From positions 1 to 45,026 of the forward strand of contig DXBX01000037.1 of NCBI GenBank assembly GCA_019116285.1: a stretch of DNA of 45,026 nt, read 5' to 3'. The translations under genes were made by a program, and so were the position numbers. The first letter of the stretch is position 1. Each line of letters begins with the position of its first letter. The notes beneath the pieces are model-generated. The model did not search any database, was not told the origin of the DNA, and worked only from the letters and a program-made list of their open reading frames with translations. Source of the stretch: Candidatus Bacteroides merdigallinarum (lineage in GTDB: Bacteria > Bacteroidota > Bacteroidia > Bacteroidales > Bacteroidaceae). Shown here in pieces: positions 1,743-7,410 of this stretch.

Positions 1743-2873
1743 TCACAGCACCCCCTTCGACGAAGGCAGTTCGAAATGATAAACATCCCGACGGACTGCC
1801 ATGCGCAGAGCACGTGCCAAGGCCTTGAAGATGCCTTCTATCTTATGGTGCTCGTTCTGCCCCTCGGCACGGACATGAAGGTTCATCCGGGCGGCATCGC
1901 TCAGAGACTTGAAGAAATGCAGGAACATCTCGGTGGGCATCTCCCCTATCCGCTCCCGATGGAACTCGGCATCCCAGACCAGCCAGGGACGGCCACCAAA
2001 GTCCAAGCAGACCTGGCACAGGCAATCGTCCATCGTCACGGCATAGCCGTATCGCTCGATGCCTCGCTTACTGCCCAACGCCCGGTAAAGACATTCCCCC
2101 AAGACCAAGGCGGTATCTTCGATGGTATGGTGCTCGTCCACCTCCAGGTCTCCACGGACGGTGATGTCCAAATCCATGCCGCCATGCTTGCCTATCTGCT
2201 CCAGCATATGGTCGAAAAAGCCCAGGCCTGTGTGGATACGGCATTGTCCGCTTCCGTCCAGATTCAGAAGGACGTGAATGTCGGTCTCCCGGGTGGTGCG
2301 ATGCACTTCCGCCCGACGTTCTCCGGCAAAAAGATATTCGGCCACACGGTCCCAATCGGTGGTGGCCAGGACACAGGTGTTCTCCAGTTCCTTGTTTCCG
2401 GCCAAGGCAGACTTGTCGGCTTGCAGGAGGATGGCTTTGCAGCCCAAATTATACGCCAGCTCCACATCCGTAGGACGATCGCCGATGACAAAGCTATGCT
2501 CCAAGTCGTAGGCTTCCGGATGGTCCAGATACTTATGCAACATTCCCGTGCGGGGCTTACGGGTAGGGGCATTGTCCTCAGGCAGGCTCCGGTCGATGCA
2601 GATGTCATCGAAGGTAATGCCCTCCCCCGCCAGGGTCTTCAACATCAGGTTATGGGCCGGCCAGAAGGTTTCTTCCGGAAAGGAGGCCGTCCCCAATCCG
2701 TCCTGGTTGGTGACCATCACGAACTCAAAATCCAGTTTCTCGCGAATGAAGCCCAGGTTGCGCATCACCTTGGGATAGAACTCCAGCTTCTCCAGCGAAT
2801 CCAGCTGGTAGTCCACGGGCGGCTCGATAACCAGCGTGCCGTCCCGGTCGATGAAAAGTACTTGTTTCTTCAT
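1743..2873 (-). CDS. hisB: Bifunctional histidinol-phosphatase / imidazoleglycerol-phosphate dehydratase
   Basis: 376 residues carrying two steps of histidine synthesis: dehydration of imidazoleglycerol phosphate and removal of phosphate from histidinol phosphate. The N-terminal half is a HAD phosphatase with the nucleophile motif DRDGT (9-13) and GDRPTD further on. The C-terminal half, from about residue 185, is the dehydratase with its two metal-binding His motifs, EHHTIEDTA and [10 protein letters not shown]. The zinc-binding Cys/His loop of the E. coli enzyme (C-x-H ... C-x-C before RKP) appears to be missing: here the loop reads [16 protein letters not shown]. The ATG overlaps the hisC stop by four bases (ATGA), so translation is probably coupled. 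Last gene of hisGDCB. Confidence 0.95.
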
Positions 2874-3904
2874 AATTTCCGCAATGCCTCCAACAAGGTT
2901 TCATTCTCGGCCATCGTACCCACCGTGATGCGCAGGCAATTGCCGCAAAGAGTCACCGTATGGCGATTGCGCACGATGATGCCCTCGCCCACCAGGTAAT
3001 TGTAGATGCGGGGAGCATCCGTCACCCGCACCAGGAAGAAATTGGCGTTGGAAGGAAAGACTTTCTGCACGCAAGGCAAGGCGGCAAACTCCTTTTCCAG
3101 CCGGTCACGCTCCTGCTTCAACATCTCCACCCAACGCTGTTTCTCGTAATGCCGGTGGAGCATCTCCATAGCCTGCTGTTGGGTCAGTTGGTTGACGTTA
3201 TAAGGATACTTGATTTTGTTGAAGAGGGCGATGATGTCCTCCGAAGCGAAGGCCATTCCCAGACGGATGGCGGCGCAACCCCATGCCTTGGAGAAAGTCT
3301 GCAGGACAATCAGGTTGGGGAATTCATCCAGCCGGGCCAGGAAGGAAGGCGCTTCGGAAAAGTCGATGTAGGCTTCGTCCAAGACCACCAGTCCGTCAAA
3401 TTCTTTCAGAAGTTTCTCTATCTCATCGTGACTCAGGTCATTGCCGGTCGGATTGTTGGGCGAACAGAGGAACATCAGCTTGGTATGCGCATCGGCTGCG
3501 TCCAGCATCCGGCGGGCACTGAACTGGAAATGGTCGTCCAACAGGACCTTGCGGTATTCCACATCGTTGATCTCGGCGGCCACCAGATACATGCCGTAGG
3601 TCGGTTCGATGGCCACCACATTGTCCTGCCTCGGCTCGCAAAAAGCACGGAAGACCAGATCGATGGCCTCATCACTGCCATTACCCAGGAAGATGCGTTC
3701 GGGCGCCACCCCTTTCAGCTTGGCCAGGTTCTTCTTCAGCTCCCATTGCAAGGGGTCGGGATAGCGGTTGTTGGGTCCGTTGTAAGGATTCTCGTTGGCA
3801 TCGAGAAAGACGGAAGCCGTCACGCCTTTATATTCATCACGCGCCGAAGAATAGGGCTTCAGGCGCCAGATATTCTCACGGGTCAGTTCTTGTAAGGTTT
3901 TCAT
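2870..3904 (-). CDS. hisC: Histidinol-phosphate aminotransferase
   Basis: 344-residue PLP enzyme of aminotransferase fold type I that converts imidazole-acetol phosphate to histidinol phosphate with glutamate as donor. Visible motifs are the PLP-lysine signature FSKAWG (204-209, Lys206), SPNNPTGN (148-155), the cofactor-binding DEAYIDF near residue 176 and the arginine-containing IRLGMAF. Length is normal for HisC. It is separated from the upstream hisD by a 231-bp gap filled mostly with palindromic tandem repeats, and it overlaps hisB by four bases. Since hisG, hisD, hisC and hisB all run leftward, the gap is expected to be transcribed with the operon. Confidence 0.95.
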
Positions 3905-4135: not shown

Positions 4136-5410
4136 CTACTCCATTCTCACCTTCACCGCATTCTTATGGGCATCCAAATGTTCGTTGGCGGCCATGGTCA
4201 TGATGGCGGGGCCGATGCGGCGCAGGCCTTCGGGGGTGATTTCCTGGAAGGTAATCTTACGGATGAAGCTGTCCAGGCTGACGCCGCTGTAGGCACGGGC
4301 ATAACCGTTGGTGGGCAGGGTGTGGTTGGTGCCGGAAGCATAGTCGCCCGCACTCTCCGAGGCGTAGGGCCCCAGGAAGACAGAACCGGCGTTCCTCACC
4401 TGTCCGGCCACACGGGCATAGTCCGCCGTCTGGATGATGAGATGTTCCGGGGCGTAGGCATTGGTCAAGGCTATGGCCTCGTCCATGTCGCGCGCCACGA
4501 TGAGCTTGCTGTTCTCCAGCGAGCGGGCTGCTATTTCCCGGCGAGGCAGCAAGGCCAGCTGACGCTCCACCTCTTTCACCACCGCCCGGCAAAGTTCGGG
4601 AGAGGTTGTGACCAGCACCGCCTGGCTGTCCACGCCATGCTCGGCCTGGCTCAACAGGTCGGCTGCCACAAAGACCGGATTGGCCGTCTCGTCTGCCAAG
4701 ACCTCCACTTCCGAAGGACCGGCCGGCATGTCAATGGCCACGTCGCGCAGGCTGACCAGTTGCTTGGCGGCGGTGACATACTGATTGCCCGGTCCGAATA
4801 TCTTGTACACACGCGGTACACTCTCCGTTCCATACGCCATGGCACCAATGGCCTGCACGCCTCCGGCCTTGAAGATACGGCTCACACCGGCCACGCGGGC
4901 GGCGAAAAGAACGGCGGGATGCACCTTTCCGTCCTTGCCCGGCGGGGTGCACAAGACGATTTCCTCACAACCGGCTATCTTCGCGGGAACGGCCAACATC
5001 AATACCGTGCTGAACAAGGGAGCCGTACCACCGGGGATGTACAACCCCACCTTCTCGATGGGAACCGCTTTTTGCCAGCAGGTTACGCCCGGCTGGGTCT
5101 CTACCCGCTTGCCTTCAAAACGTTGGGCGGCATGAAAGGTCTCGATATTCTGCTTGGCCAGGCGGATGGCTGCTTTCAGGTCCTCCCCTATCAAGCCTTC
5201 CGCCTCCTGCATCTCTTCCTCGGTAACGGCCAACGAGTCCAAACGGACTTTGTCGAACTGTACCTCATAATCCAATACGGCACGGTCTCCTTCAGACTTT
5301 ACCCGGTCGAGTATGACACGGACCGTATCAAACAAGCTTTCCACATTCAAGCCCGGACGTTTCAAGATTTCAGGCCACCGGGCCTTGTCCGGATATTCTA
5401 TCTGTATCAT
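4136..5410 (-). CDS. hisD: Histidinol dehydrogenase
   Basis: 424 residues. It is a zinc- and NAD-dependent enzyme that oxidises histidinol to histidine in two steps, the end of the pathway. Signature stretches are FGPGNQYVTAAKQLV, the PSEVEVLADE block, SQAEHGVDSQA with zinc-ligand residues, and the catalytic Glu-His pair in YAPEHLII. I chose the ATG at 5410 (protein start MIQIEYPDK), 13 nt after the hisG stop. The open frame extends to a TTG at 5431 that overlaps hisG, but this adds seven residues not typical of the family. Second gene of the operon. The stop codon abuts the 23-bp repeat array. Confidence 0.94.
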   Translation of the reverse strand: MIQIEYPDKARWPEILKRPGLNVESLFDTVRVILDRVKSEGDRAVLDYEVQFDKVRLDSLAVTEEEMQEAEGLIGEDLKAAIRLAKQNIETFHAAQRFEGKRVETQPGVTCWQKAVPIEKVGLYIPGGTAPLFSTVLMLAVPAKIAGCEEIVLCTPPGKDGKVHPAVLFAARVAGVSRIFKAGGVQAIGAMAYGTESVPRVYKIFGPGNQYVTAAKQLVSLRDVAIDMPAGPSEVEVLADETANPVFVAADLLSQAEHGVDSQAVLVTTSPELCRAVVKEVERQLALLPRREIAARSLENSKLIVARDMDEAIALTNAYAPEHLIIQTADYARVAGQVRNAGSVFLGPYASESAGDYASGTNHTLPTNGYARAYSGVSLDSFIRKITFQEITPEGLRRIGPAIMTMAANEHLDAHKNAVKVRME

Positions 5411-5423
5411 GGCAAATGAAAAT

Positions 5424-6275
5424 TTATACAATCATCTTCTCTATCGGCAGCACCAGGATGCCTTCCGCGCCCAGGGCTTTCAGCTTCCCGATGATTTCCC
5501 AGAAACATTTCTCGTCCAGCACGGTATGTACCGAACACCAGCCTTCCTGCGCCAAAGGCATCACGGTGGGGCTCTTCATGCCCGGCAGGACGGAAACGAT
5601 TTGCTCCAGCTTGTCCTTCGGGGCATTCATCAAGACATATTTCTTGTCCTCGGCGGTCTTGACGGCATCCATGCGGAAAAGCAGCTCCCGCAGGATCTCC
5701 CGCTTCTCCTCGCTCAACTGTTTATTGCCGATGAGCAGGGCCTCGGACTTCATCACGACCTCCACTTCCTTCAGGCTGTTGCTGACCAAGGTGGAGCCCG
5801 AACTTACGATGTCGAAGATGGCATCGGACAGGCCGATACCCGGCGATACCTCCACCGAACCGGTGATGACGTGAATCTCTGCCTTCACGCCCATCTTTTT
5901 CAGATAGGCGGACAGGATGCCGGGATAGGACGTGGCAATCTTGCGGCCGTTGAACCACTCCACACCGGGATAGTCCACTTCCTTGGGCACCGCCAACGAC
6001 AGACGGCACTTGCTGAAGCCCAATCGCTTCACAATCTCCGCATCCTCGGCTTTTTCCACAAACTCATTCTCGCCCACAATACCGATGTCGGCCACGCCCG
6101 TAGCTACGGATTGGGGTATATCGTCATCCCGCAGGAAGAGCACTTCCAGGGGAAAGTTGGAAGACTGCACCAGCAAGGTGCGTTTCGTGGCGTTCAGTTT
6201 GATATCCGATTCTTCCAGAAAGGACATCGTCTCGTCATACAGACGGCCTTTGGCTTGTACTGCAATTCTTAGCAT
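5424..6275 (-). CDS. hisG: ATP phosphoribosyltransferase, long form
   Basis: 283 residues, first enzyme of histidine synthesis: joins ATP and PRPP. The length corresponds to the long (HisG_L) form, which has a C-terminal ACT-like regulatory domain (about residues 210-283) responsible for histidine feedback inhibition and does not need HisZ. The PRPP-binding signature is the segment after ISPGIGLSDAIFDIVSSGST (about residues 145-165), and DIGIVGENEF belongs to the catalytic core. First structural gene of the operon. Its ATG lies about 40 nt downstream of the attenuator hairpin at 6316-6360, so it is the gene directly controlled by that switch. Confidence 0.95.
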   Translation of the reverse strand: MLRIAVQAKGRLYDETMSFLEESDIKLNATKRTLLVQSSNFPLEVLFLRDDDIPQSVATGVADIGIVGENEFVEKAEDAEIVKRLGFSKCRLSLAVPKEVDYPGVEWFNGRKIATSYPGILSAYLKKMGVKAEIHVITGSVEVSPGIGLSDAIFDIVSSGSTLVSNSLKEVEVVMKSEALLIGNKQLSEEKREILRELLFRMDAVKTAEDKKYVLMNAPKDKLEQIVSVLPGMKSPTVMPLAQEGWCSVHTVLDEKCFWEIIGKLKALGAEGILVLPIEKMIV

Positions 6276-6315
6276 ATCTTTTCTACTGTTTTTTGGTTCA
6301 CATTTCTCCGGTTAT

Positions 6316-6360
6316 TGGAAAAAAGAACGAGGCTTGCCAGCAATCACCGGTAAGCCTCGT
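6316..6360 (-). terminator. his operon attenuator hairpin
   Basis: On the minus strand ACGAGGCTTACC (6360-6349) pairs with GGCAAGCCTCGT (6338-6327), one wobble pair, followed by TCTTTTTTCC. This is a standard intrinsic terminator placed between the leader peptide and hisG. Its 5' arm can pair instead with an upstream segment (see antiterminator entry). Confidence 0.88.
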
Positions 6361-6431
6361 CTTTTTCTATGCTTTCTCATTACGCACGACTTCATCGCCC
6401 ACCGAGATTATCCGACGGAATGATGATGAAG
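6348..6431 (-). promoter_or_regulatory. Alternative pairing segments (pause stem and antiterminator) of the his leader
   Basis: All on the minus strand. Segment 1, CTTCATC (6431-6425), lies in the His codon run and is the exact complement of GATGAAG (6396-6390). Segment 2, CGGTGGGC (6404-6397), is directly next to GATGAAG and can form eight pairs, two of them G-U, with GCTTACCG (6355-6348) in the 5' arm of the terminator. So 1:2, 2:3 and 3:4 pairings exist in the order required for classical attenuation. Confidence 0.75.
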
Positions 6432-6455
6432 ATGATGTGCAATGAATGTTCTCAT
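6408..6455 (-). CDS. hisL: his operon leader peptide
   Basis: Fifteen-codon frame starting ATG (6455-6453) and ending TAA (6410-6408): MRTFIAHHLHHHSVG. Five of fifteen codons are histidine (CAT), arranged HH-L-HHH. It starts about 22 nt after the predicted transcription start. Its stop codon lies just before the antiterminator segment, so a ribosome that reaches the stop would mask that segment, whereas one stalled at the His codons would leave it free. This is what the E. coli/Salmonella HisL peptide does; the gene symbol is used by analogy because the sequences are not homologous. It is too short for ordinary gene callers. Confidence 0.85.
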   Translation of the reverse strand: MRTFIAHHLHHHSVG

Positions 6456-6481
6456 AACTATGAATATTTGTTTATCCGCGA

Positions 6482-6513
6482 CAAAAGTATAGTTTTCATC
6501 CGAATATTCCAAA
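6482..6513 (-). promoter_or_regulatory. his operon promoter
   Basis: On the minus strand, TTTG (6513-6510) and TACTTTTG (6489-6482) are separated by 20 bp, matching the Bacteroidetes -33/-7 consensus. The transcript would start near 6477, leading directly into the leader peptide. Confidence 0.75.
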
Positions 6514-6580
6514 GATTTATCGTAAAAAAGATATTTTTTCTTTCAATCCGTACGAAATCGGGCAGATAGGCCTTCGGCAT

Positions 6581-6895
6581 CTACCCCTCTTTCAAGAAAT
6601 CCCAGCCGTGCATCTTCCTATCTACACAGCCGTTGGACTTGAATGTCACTCCCTCTGCTTTCAGCAACTCCACCTGCTCCGGCCAATGGGGCACCGTCCG
6701 CCCCTGGCTGTTTACCACCCGATGACAAGGCAACTGACTGGCGGCCGCAGCTCCACACAAGACACGCCCCACCAAGCGGGAGTGCCGGGGCTTCCCTACC
6801 AACCAGGCTATCTGGCCATAAGTCAACACCTTCCCGTAAGGAATGGAAGCCACCACCGCATAAACCTCCTGCCGGAAAGCCTCCACCTCCATCAT
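6581..6895 (-). CDS. MGMT-family DNA-binding/alkyltransferase-like protein, short form
   Basis: 104 residues consisting only of the C-terminal DNA-binding/active-site domain of O6-alkylguanine transferases: IPYGKVLTYGQIA (helix region), an arginine in place near residue 44, and PCHRVV with Cys57. True alkyltransferase-like (ATL) proteins of this size carry Trp in place of the acceptor Cys; this one keeps the Cys, so it may be a real, though minimal, alkyl acceptor. Start: ATG at 6895 overlaps the upstream ogt stop (ATGA); a second ATG follows immediately. Longer frames reaching back into ogt are shadows. It forms an operon with the full-length enzyme, which suggests a role in alkylation damage. 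Confidence 0.85.
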   Translation of the reverse strand: MMEVEAFRQEVYAVVASIPYGKVLTYGQIAWLVGKPRHSRLVGRVLCGAAAASQLPCHRVVNSQGRTVPHWPEQVELLKAEGVTFKSNGCVDRKMHGWDFLKEG

Positions 6896-7410
6896 TCCTC
6901 CCACGATTGCTCCAAATCCAACAAGTATTTCTTGGCCTCCAACCCTCCTGCATAACCTGTCATCGAATGATTGCTGCCAATGACCCGGTGGCAAGGCACG
7001 AAAAAAGAAAGGGCATTCGCCCCGATGGCGCCGCCCAAGGCACGGACAGCCTTGGCATGCCCCAATTGCATAGCCACCTCGGCATACGAACGGGTCTCCC
7101 CATAAGGAATTTCCATCAATGCCTGCCACACTCTTTGCTGAAATTCCGTACCTGCCAGCAATAGCGGGACATCGAACGTTGTCCGCTCGTGTCTGAAATA
7201 CTCGTCCAGTTGCTGGATAGCTTCCACTTGGACATCCGTTATTTTCTTCTCATACAATGCCCTCAGACACCGCTGCAAACGGTTGTCTATCTTCGTCCTA
7301 TTCCGCCGGTCTATCCAGTCGCAAAGACAAAGCTTGTCGCCCAACGAACCCAGCAATAGATTTCCACAAGGAGACTGATAGGTCTGTACATAAATTGCAT
7401 TCATAGCCAT
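6892..7410 (-). CDS. ogt: Methylated-DNA--protein-cysteine methyltransferase
   Basis: 172 residues. Suicide repair enzyme that moves the alkyl group from O6-alkylguanine (or O4-alkylthymine) in DNA to its own cysteine. The N-terminal ribonuclease-like domain occupies about 1-85. The C-terminal domain contains the HTH region GTEFQQRVWQALMEIPYGETRSYAEVA, the Arg-containing AVRALGGAIGAN and the active-site motif PCHRVIG with Cys140. Length and order fit the Ogt/AdaB type with no Ada regulatory domain. The symbol ogt is used in a family sense. It overlaps the short MGMT-family gene downstream by four bases. Start at 7410 (MAMNAIYV); an ATG two codons later is equally possible. Confidence 0.92.
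   Translation of the reverse strand: MAMNAIYVQTYQSPCGNLLLGSLGDKLCLCDWIDRRNRTKIDNRLQRCLRALYEKKITDVQVEAIQQLDEYFRHERTTFDVPLLLAGTEFQQRVWQALMEIPYGETRSYAEVAMQLGHAKAVRALGGAIGANALSFFVPCHRVIGSNHSMTGYAGGLEAKKYLLDLEQSWEE

Follow-up and report, generated by a model that had tools for sequence, protein, structure and literature searches.

The region upstream of hisG in Candidatus Bacteroides merdigallinarum carries a leader that is very probably a ribosome-mediated transcription attenuator, predicted to raise transcription of hisGDCB when charged tRNA-His is short, with a histidine response that we infer. It lies on the minus strand of contig DXBX01000037.1, within the 45,026-nucleotide stretch that was analysed as a whole (the window). 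Sequence and comparison show a short His-rich open reading frame (ORF) and complementary segments, their conservation among relatives, and how far segment 2 lies from the His codons and the stop codon. The first-pass annotation of the window had proposed such a his attenuator, and reading base by base placed its promoter, His-rich ORF, pairing segments, terminator and hisG where it had put them on the minus strand. The proposal is supported by the presence of the ORF before hisG in 86 of 93 regions from the genus, and by three helices that pair in 69 leaders from other genera.

On the minus strand, the putative promoter consists of an upstream TTTG (6510-6513) and, 20 nucleotides farther on, the element TACTTTTG (6482-6489), which has the form TAnnTTTG; the two together are what we take to be the Bacteroides promoter consensus. 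The leader ATG stands 26 nucleotides past TACTTTTG and opens the ORF MRTFIAHHLHHHSVG (6408-6455), a short frame rich in codons for one amino acid, with five His codons among 15 and with predicted translation. These codons, CAT CAT (CTT) CAT CAT CAT, occupy 6420-6437 and are the predicted stall sites. Segment 1 falls within the ORF. Its outer strand, GCACATCATCTTCATC (6425-6440), forms a duplex with 6396-6384, where duplex energies place the outer 3' strand GATGAAGTCGTGC (6384-6396). Its inner strand, TCCGTCGG (6412-6419, codons 13-15), was assigned by RNAalifold and pair counts as the partner of segment 2. Segment 2, CGGTGGGC (6397-6404), is the 5' strand of the antiterminator and begins three nucleotides past the leader stop codon. 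Segment 3, GCTTACCG (6348-6355), located by alignment and folding, is the 3' strand of the antiterminator and overlaps the 5' arm of the terminator, GACGAGGCTTACC (6349-6361). The 3' arm of the terminator, GGCAAGCCTCGTT (6326-6338), is segment 4; covariation and folding support both arms, and a U tract of six T residues lies at 6319-6324. An intrinsic terminator is found before the first structural gene, together with an antiterminator that excludes it.

The antiterminator pairing of CGGTGGGC (6404-6397) with GCTTACCG (6355-6348) was found as first annotated. The pairing given for segments 1 and 2, CTTCATC (6431-6425) with GATGAAG (6396-6390), is likewise present, but it shares no base with CGGTGGGC; it lies within the outer half of a 1:2 hairpin, which is larger than had been described and encloses CGGTGGGC. 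Competition base for base is provided by the inner half of this hairpin, in which TCCGTCGG (6419-6412) pairs with TCGGTGGG (6405-6398). The outer duplex of this leader has an energy of -15.2 kcal/mol (z -0.99). Over 81 genus leaders (five of the 86 were dropped, as their segments were missed by the search pattern), outer duplex energies showed a modest gain over mononucleotide shuffles (mean z -1.18, median rank p 0.15).

Of the genes downstream of the leader, hisG comes first and encodes ATP phosphoribosyltransferase (5424-6275, ATG at 6275; Pfam HisG and HisG_C). It is followed on the same strand by hisD for histidinol dehydrogenase (4136-5431 as the listed ORF, whose true start may be internal; Pfam Histidinol_dh), by hisC for histidinol-phosphate aminotransferase (2870-3904, named by its place and Pfam Aminotran_1_2), and by a bifunctional hisB with a HAD phosphatase-like part and IGP dehydratase (1743-2873; Pfam Hydrolase_like and IGPD). 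HisA and HisF, recognized by Pfam, are encoded on contig 30 of the same genome, in a separate operon after a hisH-like gene named by eye. Inspection by eye of that operon (L383, 840-890) revealed a short 5' UTR and, between a promoter-like motif and hisH, no His-rich ORF, so only hisGDCB seems to be attenuated. The closest named relative found is Candidatus Bacteroides intestinavium, with a HisG 98% identical and an identical leader peptide. A protein search returned 7,996 HisG relatives and nothing bearing on regulation. A phage origin was considered and rejected, since megablast, the one search used, found nothing close to 5000-7400 among 50,697 phage records. On the minus strand at 6581-7410, ahead of the his operon, lies a pair of overlapping ORFs, each with a match to the methylguanine-DNA methyltransferase DNA-binding domain; positions 1-47 of that strand contain part of a group II intron (RF02001), truncated where the window ends.

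In the proposed mechanism, RNA polymerase would start just after TACTTTTG, and a ribosome would initiate at the leader ATG without the aid of a Shine-Dalgarno sequence. With sufficient histidine, this ribosome would reach the stop codon and place its footprint over segment 2 (CGGUGGGC); segment 3 would stay free, the terminator would form, and transcription would stop before hisG. With charged tRNA-His short, the ribosome would stall on a His codon and break the 1:2 hairpin, leaving segment 2 free. Segments 2 and 3 would then pair (GCUUACCG) ahead of the terminator, and RNA polymerase would read through. Were no ribosome loaded, the 1:2 hairpin would mostly keep segment 2, with termination as the default.

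Folding of the leader was compared with that of shuffled sequences. The folding energy of the leader (6480-6310) is -53.2 kcal/mol (z -4.29), with 1 of 200 shuffles equally good, and that of the terminator piece (6397-6318) is -30.3 kcal/mol (z -4.60), with none of 200 equally good. When part of the 1:2 hairpin and the right arm of the terminator were omitted (6408-6340), the antiterminator was the minimum free energy structure at -17.7 kcal/mol (z -1.73), equalled by 10 of 200 shuffles. A simple terminator scan of 6200-6600 reported two other sites and left the leader terminator out of its output, perhaps because an A.C mismatch breaks the stem and the rule demands an unbroken stem beside the T run.

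The leader is widely conserved in the genus. hisG was found in 94 of 99 genus genomes, and upstream DNA was obtained for all but one, which is cut at a contig start. Two of the seven regions without the ORF end at a contig edge, and R1, a covariance model built only from Bacteroides leaders, finds the leader of both genomes at the end of another contig, which leaves five hisG genes without one (L069, L079, L080, L082 and L090). The absence of a conserved His-codon ORF or of alternative stems among relatives, which the first-pass annotation had named as fatal to its reading, was looked for and is not what these genomes display. As seen by eye, L079 and L080 have a promoter-like motif directly before hisG, and in L069 and L082 a coding stretch seemingly reaches hisG. 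Leader ORFs contain four to seven His codons in 82 of the 86 cases, three in 2 and two in 2. TAnnTTTG occurs within 75 nucleotides upstream of the leader ATG in all 86, and TTTG stands 19-20 nucleotides from it in 79, compared with 0.24 expected from shuffles; a Shine-Dalgarno-like match was found just upstream of the ATG in none of the 86. Segments 2 (CGGTGGGC) and 3 (GCTTRCCG) are near-invariant across them. Among the contigs of named genomes (the best 80 of 581 matches, partly the same genomes as the genus set), 76 carry the leader, including those of B. fragilis, B. xylanisolvens, B. faecis and B. salyersiae; of the other 4 among these best 80, two are truncated by the contig edge, a third has a CGGTGGGC-like motif with two His codons, and the last has nothing. 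R1 gives one strong match per genome (66-130 bits) in 88 of the 99 genus genomes, the next best match scoring 39 bits. The weak R1 matches examined, five from the genus (L372-L376) and two from the family at 36 and 38 bits (L371 and L377), have neither hisG nor a convincing His-rich ORF and were rejected as members.

Next, we examined the pairing of the three helices. On A1, the alignment of the 86 genus leaders, the terminator is paired in 94.4% of cells and has 93 double-change cells compared with 33 after shuffling (reached in 0 of 500 shuffles); these shuffle ranks, as the tool warns, are not probabilities. The inner 1:2 helix and the 2:3 antiterminator are paired in 97.4% and 97.7% of cells, with double changes of 1 versus 0.8 (292 of 500 shuffles) and 7 versus 4.5 (49 of 500), respectively. 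Covariation for both is weak within the genus because segments 1 and 2 scarcely vary there. RNAalifold on A1 recovered the 1:2 helix and the terminator unprompted. The structure given to R1 consists of the 1:2 helix and the terminator, with 2:3 absent. Searched through the family at E 0.001, this model matched in 103 of 201 genomes, a denominator taken regardless of the presence of hisG, and 81 of 83 fetched matches, a subset of those listed, lie upstream of hisG. In an alignment of 69 R1-matched leaders, all from other genera, the 2:3 helix is paired in 92.1% of cells, with 12 double-change cells versus 4.3 shuffled (1 of 500), a count that is unbiased by the model structure since R1 lacks 2:3. 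Its covariation score beats that of every slid version, one of which has 13 double-change cells at 49% paired. The inner 1:2 helix is paired in 91.4% of cells, with 44 double-change cells versus 14.1 (0 of 500) in an alignment fitted to this helix, and the terminator has 66 versus 17 (0 of 500). The covariation that the first-pass annotation had asked for is thereby seen as double changes in all three stems beyond the genus.

The position of segment 2 was also consistent with masking by a ribosome. In every one of the 86 genus leaders, its first base lies 15-25 nucleotides beyond the last His codon and at -13 to +10 nucleotides relative to the stop codon. This extends to the genus the closeness of stop codon and segment 2 first noted here, and the spacing suits masking in all of them for the footprint size assumed. 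In the 69 leaders of the wider family the corresponding ranges are -7 to 24 (3 of them below 12) and -23 to +12. For a folding model, all 86 leaders were truncated just before the right arm of the terminator and folded without the RNA that lies under or upstream of the ribosome. The leading edge of the ribosome was assumed to lie 11 nucleotides downstream of the A-site codon's first base; values of 9 and 13 gave the same picture. With the ribosome at the first, second or last His codon, the mean predicted probability of 2:3 pairing was 0.944, 0.95 or 0.970, as against 0.005 at the stop codon and 0.265 (median 0.017) with no ribosome. For the leader of the window it was 1.0 at the His codons tested and 0.0 with the ribosome either at the stop or absent. 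The low value at the stop is mostly due to segment 2 being masked, and the spacing of segment 2 is the better evidence. As long as no ribosome is loaded, the 1:2 hairpin is predicted to keep the antiterminator from forming, with covariation seen only beyond the genus and with 26 of the 86 leaders favouring 2:3 in the folding model even then.

We asked whether other explanations could account for these features. The His-rich peptide might itself be the functional product, for instance a metal-binding microprotein, with the terminator incidental, and the four to seven His codons kept in nearly all genus leaders would suit such a role. Against this, one and the same RNA, the inner strand of the 1:2 helix, encodes the peptide tail in more than one frame, with PDE or PNE for example in most genus leaders: the three frames are used 80, 6 and 0 times in the genus, the six others reading HHYLTNNR or HLTNQFGGQ, and 44, 16 and 9 times in the family, the latter counts being approximate for a few poorly aligned rows. 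At least four His codons in seven are found in 63 of 69 family leaders. It is the RNA rather than the peptide tail that is conserved, and His codons and RNA pairing are common to nearly all leaders. The ORF is moreover tied to hisG, the three mutually exclusive helices stay paired, and a Trp-rich analogue exists in the same genome; a peptide with a function of its own is accordingly a very improbable reading.

An attenuator governed by the ribosome must also be weighed against one in which a trans-acting protein or small molecule selects between terminator and antiterminator. That the antiterminator can form without a ribosome in 26 of the 86 leaders, according to the folding model, speaks for this possibility, but the distances of segment 2 from the His codons and the stop codon suit the assumed ribosome footprint in all 86, and no Rfam riboswitch or T-box was matched at the gathering threshold in the whole window, with only His_leader appearing up to E 1 in 6200-6600. 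We consider a trans-acting selector to have just a slim chance of being correct. Termination at a constant rate, merely trimming hisGDCB, or an action on translation or Rho access in place of the intrinsic terminator, would agree with full-length folds, in which the terminator dominates both with the ribosome at the stop codon and without a ribosome (P34 of 0.975 and 0.974), and with the 17 of 28 His-rich leaders from genomes sharing only the phylum that have no intrinsic terminator by the rule used. Yet the family has kept an antiterminator in base-for-base competition with the terminator, one that would be needless at a constant rate of termination, and we regard such schemes as exceedingly unlikely for this leader. 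Ribosome-mediated attenuation remains the reading that we prefer.

In a phylum sample, hisG was found in 103 of 118 genomes, and upstream regions were read at 89 of the 102 other hisG loci. Where HisG is at least 40% identical to that of the window, an ORF with at least three His in seven codons precedes hisG at 54 of 59 loci, and one with at least four at 48 of 59; where it is at most 34% identical, a His-rich ORF was found upstream at none of 30 loci (of 43, 30 were read). Over the 89 loci, antisense controls gave 4 and 1 such ORFs at the two thresholds and shuffles 3.7 and 0.05. In a class sample of 27 loci, drawn from the top matches in 69 hisG-bearing genomes and including two genus genomes and one family genome already counted, 24 and 22 have the ORF, with 4 and 0 in antisense. 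Judged on identities rather than a tree, His-rich leaders appear to track the type of HisG and not the phylum as such. Exchange of entire his operons among these groups has been suggested (PMC8305728); the accessible text of that paper uses 'attenuation' once, as background, and 'leader' zero times.

When an automatic search for the antiterminator was run across the phylum, p 0.05 was reached by 14 of the 51 leaders that could be tested, with a mean z of -0.94. Of the 78 leaders in that search, which include two genus loci, 27 have no terminator by the rule used. Because this automatic search is weak outside the family, the full switch is claimed for the family only. By eye, and left out of the counts, GGGTAAGC stands opposite GCTTACCC in L178 and L194. 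At loci guessed to be flavobacterial (L183, L187, L189, L190, L193 and L196-L198), a different terminator of the AACCCGTTTGAG type was seen by eye, and several of these loci have a leader ORF whose end overlies a CTCAAGCG-like stretch potentially able to pair with that terminator. The 17 leaders with no terminator by rule (L268-L273 and L276-L286, out of L260-L287) may be under Rho or translational control. Most of them have 7-11 scattered His codons, and several have GTG starts.

Leader-peptide attenuation requires a ribosome that keeps up with RNA polymerase. If the attenuator reading is true, ribosomes would track RNA polymerase closely on this leader, and the layout conserved through the genus, together with His-rich ORFs before similar hisG genes across the phylum, argues for coupling, at least on leaders. 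A much broader claim is that there is one Bacteroidota-wide histidine attenuator, sharing a common ancestor with the enterobacterial his leader, moved between phyla with a hisGDC[NB] operon, refitted to starts without Shine-Dalgarno sequences, and proving close coupling of polymerase and ribosome on leaders throughout the phylum; we hold this to be rather unlikely. As judged from sequence, the mechanism is classic, and what is new is the RNA family, by Rfam's measure, its spread, and the handle that it offers on coupling in Bacteroidota. The leader would be a ready reporter for coupling in gut bacteria whose leader ORFs have no Shine-Dalgarno-like sequence, and could supply a histidine-responsive part for Bacteroides genetics as well as a candidate RNA family with no Rfam entry at threshold. 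In the main text as accessible, a study that classes six other phyla as runaway (PMC13323073) and another on coupling (PMC7858274) contain no word beginning with Bacteroid-.

Attenuators are reportedly among the predictions made for Bacteroidetes/Chlorobi by Vitreschak et al. in 2004. The first-pass annotation knew of few studied cases in Bacteroidetes. In the open PMC literature, to the extent of the text accessible, no description of a his attenuator of Bacteroides was found, but hints from the phylum exist. Flavobacterium psychrophilum has a structured element 5' of hisG that is conserved in other genera of Flavobacteriaceae and has no Rfam match, and strong clues for leader-peptide attenuation at amino-acid operons were described in the same work (PMC9723704). 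This element shares phylum and place with the leader described here, while the accessible part of that paper gives no hisG peptide or antiterminator; the guessed flavobacterial loci above differ from the Bacteroides leader in their AACCCGTTTGAG-type terminator. A map of B. thetaiotaomicron reports small ORFs in long 5' UTRs that are reminiscent of attenuation leaders, its accessible main text being free of the word 'histidine'. His attenuators have been predicted in the Bacillus cereus group, Erysipelotrichales and Peptostreptococcaceae, with a leader peptide of three to five consecutive His codons, a terminator and an antiterminator (PMC9413887). They resemble the present leader by description and belong to another phylum, and 'bacteroid' is absent from that paper in its accessible text.

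Comparison with the leader of E. coli K-12 gave a similar overall design. In hisL, whose peptide translated by eye is MTRVQFKHHHHHHHPD, a His run is followed by Pro-Asp codons, by complementary stretches seen by eye after the run, by a terminator, and then by hisG, hisD and hisC; E. coli HisG is 44% identical to that of the window. The antiterminator strand differs by eye, and no Shine-Dalgarno-like sequence precedes the Bacteroides ORF. R1 finds hisL with 29.5 bits (E 1.6e-6 in 5 kb), and decoys that keep the His run with the rest shuffled score as high as the real leader in 4 of 300 and 8 of 300 cases. The sequence likeness to hisL beyond the His run seems slight, and may reflect either descent or convergence. 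In the reverse direction, the His_leader model RF00514 matches the region 6200-6600 with 23.7 bits, below its gathering score of 49, and 7 of 20 further loci match it with 24.7-29.9 bits, all below threshold.

Another parallel lies within the same genome. On contig 71, at 5295-5441 (locus L388, about 1501-1680), Rfam's Bacteroid-trp RNA (RF01692), which has been listed as a likely cis-regulatory RNA in the accessible text of PMC2864571, is matched with 70.4 bits. By eye, this leader has an ORF, MRQIARTYWWWRPLQLQQS, with Trp-Trp-Trp, then a terminator and a trpB-like start. It differs from the his leader in that tryptophan takes the place of histidine, and the his leader has no RF01692 match at threshold; the trp leader is a second leader of this design in the same genome.
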